Source of the DNA: an uncultured Opitutales bacterium
Lineage (GTDB): Bacteria > Verrucomicrobiota > Verrucomicrobiia > Opitutales > Intestinicryptomonadaceae
NCBI GenBank assembly: GCA_944389885.1
Contig: CALXNZ010000001.1
Location: 62,001 to 126,000 of the forward strand
Direction: 5' to 3'
Length of the DNA: 64,000 bases
Part shown: one piece after another, positions 17,910 through 21,299 of the stretch
Numbering within the stretch: the stretch's first letter is position 1
How the letters are laid out: each line of letters starts with the position of its first letter
Notes under the pieces: model-generated
The model's input: the letters and a program-made list of their open reading frames with translations, nothing else
Database searches by the model: none
Told to the model about the DNA's origin: nothing
Translations under genes and position numbers: made by a program

Positions 17910-18809
17910 ATGCCCGAAAAAAAACAACGCGGTTCCGCTTTGACATGGCGGGATTTGAAAAGCTCGACACGCCATTCAAAACAAAAGAATGTGCCGATGT
18001 CCTGGCGCGCGCGGCTGAGGACGCTTTGGACATGGACAAAGCGGGCGTTTTTCTTAGGACTTTTGATATTCGCAATATGGGGCGGGATATATCTGTATAG
18101 GAACGCGTGTTTTGAGGATATATTCGGGGCTAAAAGCCTTAAAATAAGCCGCATAGAATTCATAACCGACGGGAATCTCACCGGAGAATGGATTAACAAA
18201 TATTTGAAAATCCCCGCCGACTCCACATTGTCGGACGTAAACATTTTCGCAATAAAAGGCGCTATTGACGCCCTCGGCCAAGTGAAAAGCGCAAGTGTGG
18301 AAAGAGTTTTTCCGGACGTATTGCGCATAAAGACAAGCGAGTATAAGCCGATAGCTAAAGCCAAAATAGAGATAAACTCGTCAATAAAAGAATATCTTCT
18401 TGCGGAAACCGGAGAATTCTTTGAGCCGTCCTGCATGCCTGTTGAAGTCTTCAACTCTCTGCCAACTGTGCAGGGTCTGAACATAGTTCTCGAAAACGGG
18501 AAACCCCTGCCCTATCGGCACGCCAAGACCGTTACAAATTTTCTGCGCTACGCAAACGCCCGCATGCCTGAACAAGCCTCCAAATGGAATACCCTGCGAC
18601 TCGGCGCTCTCGACAGCAGAATTCTTCCATTGATAGAAGTTGTGACCCAAGACGGGGTGAAAATTATCTTTCTTCCCGAAAACTTGAAAAAGCAATTTGA
18701 CAGGTTGGACTATATCTTGCGATACTCTGTGCAGAAACCTCTCTTAAACATAGAAAAAATAGATCTGAGCCTCGACAATAGATCCGATGTAAAACTTAAA
18801 CGCCAATGA
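17910..18809 (+). CDS. ftsQ: Cell division protein FtsQ
   Basis: 299 residues: a basic cytoplasmic N-terminus of about 45 residues, one transmembrane helix (about residues 47-64), then a POTRA-like domain (starting near SRIEFITDGNLT) containing VERVFPDVLRIK, a characteristic FtsQ motif, and the beta domain. The protein is the periplasmic hub that recruits the FtsL/B-type partners. Identification uses topology, the VFPD-type motif and location between ddl and ftsA. It overlaps ftsA by ATGA. Confidence 0.9.
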   Translation: MPEKKQRGSALTWRDLKSSTRHSKQKNVPMSWRARLRTLWTWTKRAFFLGLLIFAIWGGIYLYRNACFEDIFGAKSLKISRIEFITDGNLTGEWINKYLKIPADSTLSDVNIFAIKGAIDALGQVKSASVERVFPDVLRIKTSEYKPIAKAKIEINSSIKEYLLAETGEFFEPSCMPVEVFNSLPTVQGLNIVLENGKPLPYRHAKTVTNFLRYANARMPEQASKWNTLRLGALDSRILPLIEVVTQDGVKIIFLPENLKKQFDRLDYILRYSVQKPLLNIEKIDLSLDNRSDVKLKRQ

Positions 18810-20017
18810 GCGACAGCCAAACCATAGCCTCCTTAGATATAGGCACCTACAAGATGCAGGTGCTTGTCGGGGAAATCGTGGACAATAACAGCCTGCACAT
18901 AATAGGCATGGGAAGGGCGCGCAGCGAAGGCGTAAAAAAAGGGGATATAATTGATATCCGCAAAGCGGCATTGAGGGCACAGGAGGCTATTGTAAATGCG
19001 GAAAAGTCAAATTCTGCATCGCTAAAATCGGTATGTCTGGGCATAAGCGGCACTCATGTAATGGGATTTAGAAATCTCGGTTCCGCGAACGTTTCAGGAG
19101 CCGACGGATTAGTGAGAAAAGCTGACGTGGAAAGGGCTTGTGAAGACGCCCGCTCAAAAAATCTTCCCGAGGGAAGAACATACATATGCAGAATCTGCTG
19201 CGGATTTTATCTCGACGGACAATTTACGGTATCGCCGCTCGGGAAAAAAGCCAACCGCATAGACGCGGAATTTTGGATGATGCATGGGGATTCGGAAAAG
19301 ATATACGACGCAATGCATCTTGTCGAAAGTTTCGGACTGGAAGTCGACCATTTGATGTTTTCCGGAATATGTTCCGCCAAAACCGTAACCACACCGGTAC
19401 AGCGCGACGACGGGGTAGTATGCATAGACATAGGTTGCGGAACGAGCGATTACGCATTTTACAAGCACGGGAAACCCATACAGGCCGGAGTTGTGCCAGT
19501 GGGGGGCGACCACCTCACAAACGACATATCGCTTGGGCTAAAACTTAGCCCGAAAAATTCCGAATCGCTCAAAATACGCTTTGGAGCCGCCGCTCCGGAC
19601 GAGAGCGACAGGAACAAGAGCGTATGGGCCGTAGGCGACAAACAAATAGGCGACAGAAAAATTTCTCTTTACTCAATGCGAAAAATTATGAATGCGCGCC
19701 TGGCAGAACTATTTGAACTCATACGCCAGGACCTTGGAGAGTATGTCGAAGACGGAGCCATAAGAAGCCTCGTTCTCACGGGGGGGACTTCCAGAATCGC
19801 AGGCATCTGCGAGCTCGCCCAAGAGATTTTCGGTGTGCCGTGTTCAAACGGAAGATTCAACGCCGCAATAAAGGAGGAATTGCGGGAGCCCGAGTTTGCG
19901 ACGTCGATTGGTCTCCTCGAACACGCCCTTTCCGACTCATTGCTTGAACTGAGAAACCGGCGCAAAGGCATTTTCGAGGAAACCGCAGACATATTCAGAA
20001 AAATCTTCAATCGCTAA
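18806..20017 (+). CDS. ftsA: Cell division protein FtsA
   Basis: 403 residues of the actin/Hsp70 fold. ATP-binding motifs: SLDIGTYKMQVLVGE (phosphate 1) at residues 9-23, CIDIGCGTSDYAFY (phosphate 2) and LVLTGGTSRIAGI (adenosine). The C-terminal 16 residues (GIFEETADIFRKIFNR) form an amphipathic helix suitable as the membrane-targeting sequence. FtsA tethers FtsZ to the membrane. It is directly followed by the divergent ftsZ, whose C-terminal peptide should be its binding partner. Confidence 0.95.
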   Translation: MSDSQTIASLDIGTYKMQVLVGEIVDNNSLHIIGMGRARSEGVKKGDIIDIRKAALRAQEAIVNAEKSNSASLKSVCLGISGTHVMGFRNLGSANVSGADGLVRKADVERACEDARSKNLPEGRTYICRICCGFYLDGQFTVSPLGKKANRIDAEFWMMHGDSEKIYDAMHLVESFGLEVDHLMFSGICSAKTVTTPVQRDDGVVCIDIGCGTSDYAFYKHGKPIQAGVVPVGGDHLTNDISLGLKLSPKNSESLKIRFGAAAPDESDRNKSVWAVGDKQIGDRKISLYSMRKIMNARLAELFELIRQDLGEYVEDGAIRSLVLTGGTSRIAGICELAQEIFGVPCSNGRFNAAIKEELREPEFATSIGLLEHALSDSLLELRNRRKGIFEETADIFRKIFNR

Positions 20018-20030
20018 TAATCGGAAACGC

Positions 20031-21299
20031 ATGGAATCCCCAAAGACAACGCCAAGCATAAAGATAGCCGCCGTGGGAGGGGCCGCCGCAAACGTATTGG
20101 CGAATCTGCCGCCCAGTGAAATCTCAAATGCGGAAATCTGCGCGTTCGATACGGACAGAGTCTCCATATCCATGCTGCCCTTTCCTTGTAAATTGCTCGG
20201 GGAGGACGACGTCGGCGGCATCGGAACGGGAGGAGATACCGAACTCGGCAAGAATGCCGCTCTTGCCGACATACAACTTCTAAGCGATTTTACAAAAGGA
20301 GCCGATGCCCTAATTATAATTTGCGGACTTGGCGGAGGAACGGCAAGCATGGTCGCCCCAATGCTCTCAAAATTGGCCCGCGAAAACGGAGCGAAATTTT
20401 CCATGGCCTTTTGCATCATGCCGCTCGAAATGGAGGGACCTCAACGCATGGAGCTTGCCAACTCGGCGTTCAAATACCTGAGAAAAAAATGCGATGCCGC
20501 CCTGCGCATAGAAAACTCGACATTTTCAAAGACCTCCCTGTCCGAAGCCGAATCCGCGTTTTCCGACGCAAATAAGCGCATAGGATCCGCTGTCCTGTCA
20601 ATAAGCTCTGCAATAACGCGTTCCGGACTTGTAAACGCCGATATTGCGACATTAAAGCGGGTATTTTACGACGTTAAAAAGAGGGCCATACTCGCCATTG
20701 GAGAAGCCGAAGGAAACGACGCTACAAAAACTGCGATAGAAAACCTCATATCTTCAGACTCGTTAAAATCCTGCAAAAGGCTTGATTCCGCATTCGTTGC
20801 ATTTTCGTGCCCACACAATTTCGATATGACCTTAATGCAGCCGGCGCTCGAGGCCATAGGCAAAAGATACGACCTTCAAGGCAAAATTAAATTTTCTCTG
20901 CGCACAAACGAATCCCAAGACAGCCGCATAGAAATAACTTTGCTCGGAACATGCGAAGAACTGCCTGAAGAATCAGTAAGCAATAATCTTTCCTTTAAGA
21001 CCGTTTCCGAATCAAATTCAGCCAAGAGTCCTATTGAAGTTTCCAACGAAGTTTCAACCGCAGCGAATCAAACAAACGATACTTCCGCCGAATCTCATAA
21101 GAAAAAGGCTCCGCGGAGATTTTTTTCATTCGGACGCGTACTGGACGAGCCAAAGGCGGTACAACCGAGCCAAGGCGAATTTACATTTGTAGAGGCTTCC
21201 GCCCGCGGATTTTTTTCGGACACTCCTGCAAATATCCGAAATGGCGAGGATATAGATATTCCGTCTTTTATACGCAAAAAGCTAAAAATAACTCCTTAA
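20031..21299 (+). CDS. ftsZ: Divergent cell division GTPase FtsZ
   Basis: 422 residues. Tubulin/FtsZ features that are kept: an N-terminal AVGGAAANVL (T1), FDTDRVSI (T2), GIGTGGDTELGKNAA (T3), MEGPQRM (T5) and a C-terminal peptide DIDIPSFIRKK that fits the FtsA/ZipA-binding tail, after a disordered linker of about 90 residues. Features that are lost: the tubulin signature GGGTGTG reads GGGTASM (residues 101-107), and in the T7 loop the usual NxDxAD reads NADIAT, so the second catalytic Asp (E. coli D212) is Thr207. The start and the position after ftsA leave little doubt about identity, but GTPase behaviour may be altered. Confidence 0.88.
   Translation: MESPKTTPSIKIAAVGGAAANVLANLPPSEISNAEICAFDTDRVSISMLPFPCKLLGEDDVGGIGTGGDTELGKNAALADIQLLSDFTKGADALIIICGLGGGTASMVAPMLSKLARENGAKFSMAFCIMPLEMEGPQRMELANSAFKYLRKKCDAALRIENSTFSKTSLSEAESAFSDANKRIGSAVLSISSAITRSGLVNADIATLKRVFYDVKKRAILAIGEAEGNDATKTAIENLISSDSLKSCKRLDSAFVAFSCPHNFDMTLMQPALEAIGKRYDLQGKIKFSLRTNESQDSRIEITLLGTCEELPEESVSNNLSFKTVSESNSAKSPIEVSNEVSTAANQTNDTSAESHKKKAPRRFFSFGRVLDEPKAVQPSQGEFTFVEASARGFFSDTPANIRNGEDIDIPSFIRKKLKITP

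Follow-up and report, generated by a model that had tools for sequence, protein, structure and literature searches.

We analyzed the cell division gene ftsZ in a 64,000-nucleotide stretch of an uncultured Opitutales bacterium (assembly GCA_944389885.1, contig CALXNZ010000001.1, positions 62,001 to 126,000), hereafter referred to as the window. The results suggest that the gene encodes a genuine FtsZ maintained by selection, which would rely on only one of the two acidic residues of the T7 loop, the aspartate corresponding to D209 of Escherichia coli, and would probably hydrolyze guanosine triphosphate (GTP) slowly; we assign this reading a probability of about 55%. The second acid, corresponding to E. 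coli D212, is replaced by threonine. This replacement is not peculiar to the window gene: among 88 genomes of the order Opitutales, 83 carry neither Asp nor Glu at the position. As far as the sequences indicate, the second T7 acid was lost long ago and order-wide, and the changes in the tail of the T4 loop and at the positions of E. coli Q47 and N43 are younger, belonging to the family or genus of the window.

FtsZ sequences from the 88 Opitutales genomes, 79 genomes from the rest of the class, and 33 from the rest of the phylum (200 in total) were aligned with FtsZ of E. coli K-12, whose annotated record served as the numbering reference (201 sequences). One genome was sampled per species, and sampling was uneven between families. 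Thr207 of the window protein (codon ACA) aligned with E. coli D212 without gaps, and Asp204 aligned with D209. The T7 loop, NADIAT, thus does not fit the pattern NxDxxD with both acids. A search for another Asp or Glu that could occupy the T7 catalytic position found none; the nearest acid downstream is Asp214, with no other close by. In the T4 loop, GLGGGTASM, residues A105, S106, and M107 fell on E. coli G109, T110, and G111, and the stretch GGGTASM does not match the tubulin signature [SAG]GGTG[SAT]G in the form quoted in PMC1845146. Both loops had been described in this way by the first-pass annotation, and the DNA and its translation bore the descriptions out (Table 1). It had also called T3, T5, and the C-terminal peptide intact, which holds, but it overlooked two further active-site changes, E. 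coli N43 to Asp and Q47 to Val. Residues N24, D45, G71, G105–T108, E138, R142, N165, N186, N207, and D209 (E. coli numbering) are retained.

Comparison across the order revealed Thr at position 212 in 43 genomes, Ser in 17, Ala in 11, His in 5, Asp in 4, Glu in 1, and other residues in a few. Position 209, on the other hand, is acidic in 84 of the 88 (Asp in 81, Glu in 3), and 70 of the 88 retain R142. The rest of the class showed Asp or Glu at position 212 in 64 of 79 genomes and at position 209 in only 24; the first acid was lost in the other 55, including 23 with Gly, 10 with Thr, and 9 with Ser. One class family, f30, which is probably Verrucomicrobiales, perhaps Akkermansiaceae (the name is inferred), reads NVGLDDL, having lost the first acid and kept the second. 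Outside the class, the phylum includes sequences of both one-acid patterns as well as sequences with both acids. Over all 200 sequences, 34 have both acids, 97 only the first, 56 only the second, and 13 neither; most of these 13 also have an altered T4 loop. That both acids are conserved outside the phylum is taken from PMC8936486 and from the sequences of E. coli, Aquifex, and Pseudomonas. In an FtsZ tree of 80 rows, from which the T4 and T7 columns were removed and the most degenerate families left out, the sampled order members formed one branch with a support of 99; the fewest changes required on this tree were 18 at position 212 and 16 at position 209. One genome of the order (G084) carries two FtsZ genes, one of the order type and a second that reads NVGLDDL at T7, the pattern of another class family; the second copy perhaps reflects horizontal transfer or contamination.

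Several observations identify the window protein as an ortholog of FtsZ. It matched a single Pfam domain, the tubulin/FtsZ GTPase domain PF00091, with 74.1 bits (cut-off 33), and its AlphaFold2 monomer model (47 sequences in the alignment) had a mean predicted local distance difference test score of 82.9, with most of the core above 90 and a disordered linker. The model shows the FtsZ fold over the whole core. All rows shown in the structural comparison were FtsZ chains, and Foldseek agreed, indicating that the protein is FtsZ and not another branch of the tubulin family; the best match was Bacillus subtilis FtsZ 2VXY (Z 38.4, root-mean-square deviation 2.2 over 302 residues, 25% identity). 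The predicted FtsA-binding peptide GEDIDIPSFIRKKLKI is present and conserved in the genus. The gene also occupies the normal place after ftsA, as previously described, as a single copy in a division and cell wall (dcw) cluster with the usual order murG, murC, ddl, ftsQ, and ftsA upstream; matches to family models confirmed ftsA and ftsQ, and murG, murC, and ddl were named from sequence. The NCBIfam equivalog TIGR00065 gave 148 bits, below its annotation threshold of 295.2. Of 237 genomes of the class, just 41 reached this cut-off, and because it shuts out most of the class it does not decide FtsZ membership. Annotation based on motifs or cut-offs misses or mislabels much verrucomicrobial FtsZ.

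The catalytic site has been described in Staphylococcus aureus filaments, where D210 (equivalent to D209) swings and places the catalytic water, D213 (equivalent to D212) and G72 stay put and give the site its shape, R143 has an assisting role, and Q48 is a K+ ligand (PMC8936486). Compared with this site, the window FtsZ keeps the first Asp, the Arg, Asn207, D45, and GGGT, and lacks the second acid, the Q48 equivalent, and the T4 tail. We propose that the second T7 acid was lost early, in a change that nearly all of the order shares, and that the first remained as the only acid reaching the GTP of the neighboring subunit. GTP would still be bound by the intact pocket of GGGT, T3, T5, N165, and N186, and filaments would still form head to tail. 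Hydrolysis would then depend on the remaining Asp with the kept Arg (R142 type) and would be slower than in canonical FtsZ. The earlier proposal that this FtsZ may hydrolyze GTP slowly is reasonable. In E. coli, FtsZ(D212A) hydrolyzes GTP much more slowly yet assembles into filaments at the division sites of cells containing wild-type FtsZ as well (PMC4383033). FtsZ(D212G) can act as the only FtsZ of the cell once a suppressor mutation is present in the genome, and it does not complement without the suppressor (PMC5405962). In Verrucomicrobium spinosum, of the same phylum, ftsZ is essential (PMC12283558).

Several points weigh against this proposal. The S. aureus substitutions D213N and D210N both suppress assembly (PMC8936486), so that a protein without D212 might fail to polymerize unless compensated. 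No column near the active site gains a compensating acid in the sequences lacking D212; the acids enriched in this set map to E. coli positions 147, 284, 307, 315, 351, and 354. Residues W188, F217, and F286 co-occur with the loss in the order. The window protein has lost the K+ ligand Q47 and the T4 tail as well. Raw counts show a strong tendency to retain one or both acids, but this is a trend that does not reach significance in phylogenetically independent pairs, in which the two positions changed in opposite directions about three times and in the same direction almost never (median p 0.25). Finally, no biochemistry of Opitutales FtsZ was found in the literature.

The younger changes lie in the GTPase core. 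The usual T4 loop of the order, GGGTGSG, satisfies the tubulin signature. In the genus of the window, the last Gly of T4 was lost in all aligned genomes (replaced by Met, Val, Ile, or Glu), position 43 is Asp, and Q47 is usually replaced; of the two loop changes that had been put forward for comparison across the lineage, the T7 change proved order-wide, whereas the loss of the last T4 Gly is found throughout only in this genus. Mean identity within the genus was 34.4% for the FtsZ core versus 56.1% for FtsA, and FtsZ was the more conserved protein in none of 45 pairs. For the other sampled members of the order, the corresponding values were 56.3% and 51.9%, with FtsZ more conserved in 110 of 153 pairs. 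The C-terminal block (residues 379–420) had 63.9% identity in the genus, against values of 36.4% and 30.0% in the two subdomains of the core. The core therefore changes fast, and the recruiting tail and FtsA do not. This is a second layer at the genus level, an ongoing fast change of the core (T4 tail, N43, and Q47) with the FtsA-recruiting tail fixed. Upstream of the FtsA peptide, nearly all order members retain a motif, QxEFxF...RGxFxxTxxN, which in this genus is better conserved than the GTPase core; it reads RGRFEKSEPT in many other members of the class. This motif may bind another divisome protein.

The main rival to slow hydrolysis, which we regard as unlikely, is that the protein is a scaffold for which GTP is an assembly cofactor with negligible hydrolysis. 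Its main role would be the recruitment of FtsA and the divisome by its conserved tail, and its filaments would be taken apart by partners or by nucleotide exchange. The combined change of the second T7 acid, Q47, and the T4 tail is consistent with this, as are the drifting core (34% identity against 64% for the tail and 56% for FtsA) and the filaments that the slow D212A protein still makes at E. coli division sites (PMC4383033). However, 84 of 88 order members retain the D209-type acid, the residue that positions the water in S. aureus FtsZ, and this is hard to explain if catalysis is dispensable; R142 is likewise kept in 70 of 88.

That FtsZ is becoming dispensable in the family, its core eroding toward loss as seemingly happened in genome-reduced relatives of the order, is improbable, although FtsZ is accelerated and FtsA is not. 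Nine genome-reduced draft genomes of the order (0.8–1.0 Mb; their loci include L303–L307) yielded no FtsZ with the order's own profile and no FtsA above the cut-off, while MurC was found in 5 of 5 tested. In one of them (G051, locus L306, 5798–12446), murG-murCB-ddl-ftsQ is followed after 556 bp by a glyceraldehyde-3-phosphate dehydrogenase gene, and the pair ftsA-ftsZ is absent from precisely the site it would occupy. Verrucomicrobiota thus seem to include lineages without FtsZ. In the genus of the window the open reading frames are intact, and its closest pair gave a ratio of nonsynonymous to synonymous substitution rates (dN/dS) of about 0.14 (0.25/1.76, with dS near saturation), which indicates purifying selection on FtsZ. 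The highly conserved tail, the retention of GGGT, E138, N165, and D209, and the fact that order members with well-conserved FtsZ normally lack D212 too further argue against erosion. Two genomes of the genus, G001 and G010, had no FtsZ match, and neither was counted as a loss: the dcw copy of MurC was also absent from the searchable sequence of G001, and all four sampled stretches of G010 read N.

Further altered T4 loops were observed in other families. Class family f35 (L253–L260), probably Methylacidiphilaceae and including several closed genomes of 2.2–2.5 Mb, has altered T4 loops such as GLAGATGATV and GLGGAMGSAG, and most of its members have no recognizable T7 motif. The T4 loops of order families f4 and f22 (L082–L087, L089, L090) lack the conserved Thr (GRGFASGA, AGGFAGGF), and GTP binding is probably impaired in these proteins.

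A sequence artefact, or a second canonical FtsZ that does the work, is nearly excluded, even though the genome is a draft of 2.21 Mb in 27 contigs with 95.9% completeness. It contains a single PF00091 match, a permissive TIGR00065 search (E up to 10) for a second ftsZ added only a match at chance level, and the gene sits in its dcw place. Of the 88 genomes of the order, 83 share this state; almost all of them have only one FtsZ, and some are closed. A sequencing error was rejected, as a genome of the same genus (G006) independently reads GGGTASM and Thr, Ser, or Ala stands at the D212 position across the order.

Table 1. Coordinates of ftsZ, its sequence features, and neighboring genes in the window
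Feature	Position	Strand	Remarks
T4 loop GLGGGTASM, residues 99-107	20325..20351	+	canonical GGGTGTG; order norm GGGTGSG
T7 loop NADIAT, residues 202-207	20634..20651	+	Asp204 (20640-20642) = E. coli D209; Thr207 (20649-20651) = E. coli D212
C-terminal block, QGEFTF...ARGFFSDTPANIRNG motif and FtsA-binding peptide GEDIDIPSFIRKKLKI (predicted)	21165..21290	+	63.9% mean identity in genus
ftsZ	20031..21299	+	422 aa, ATG start; AlphaFold2 model and structural match to FtsZ
ftsA	18806..20017	+	directly 5' of ftsZ; TIGR01174 257 bits (cut-off 175.85); PF14450
ftsQ	17910..18809	+	POTRA_1 match and position

Divergent verrucomicrobial FtsZ is already known, and both T7 aspartates have been treated as indispensable and conserved across species (PMC8936486). 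In the open-access literature, we found no report describing absence of the second T7 acid across the order, or the mirror-image pattern, and nothing on point concerning natural T7-acid loss in FtsZ or the GTPase activity of Opitutales or Akkermansia FtsZ. We tentatively suggest that the whole order, probably including its cultured members, divides with an FtsZ lacking one T7 acid and that other lineages of the class divide with one lacking the other. Filaments with slow or altered turnover would then suffice for division. If very slow or altered GTP turnover suffices for cytokinesis, fast treadmilling driven by hydrolysis would not be universal. The one-acid variants are natural, sole-copy, and long-selected, so the need of cell division for hydrolysis and treadmilling can be tested in species rather than in sick mutants.

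The window protein resembles canonical FtsZ of E. coli, B. subtilis, and S. aureus in its fold, its place after ftsA, GGGT, T3, T5, N165, N186, the first T7 Asp, and the C-terminal FtsA peptide. It differs in the second T7 Asp (Thr), the T4 tail (ASM), the changed N43 and Q47, and a core of about 25% identity. In tubulin, the beta subunit has Lys254 at the matching position, and this non-acidic T7 residue leaves the GTP of the neighbor unhydrolyzed; beta subunits alternate with alpha subunits bearing the catalytic Glu. In the window FtsZ, by contrast, every subunit lacks the second acid. Within the phylum, V. spinosum FtsZ, described as divergent and fast-evolving, has Ser in the tubulin signature and reads GGGTGSG (PMC1845146), and in Methylacidiphilum infernorum ftsZ evolves fast with ftsA unaffected (PMC2474590); the T7 acids are not discussed in the excerpts of these two accounts. 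Divergent, fast-evolving verrucomicrobial ftsZ also appears in a wide phylogeny (PMC9871819). FtsZ of Candidatus Thiosymbion oneisti is likewise a natural FtsZ, one with low GTPase activity, but its low activity has another cause (PMC8953583). The E. coli D212A and D212G proteins lack the same acid as the window FtsZ; D212G needs a genomic suppressor (PMC5405962), whereas in Opitutales the loss is natural, old, and order-wide. Class family f30, with the first acid lost and the second kept, presents the reverse of the state found in the order of the window.
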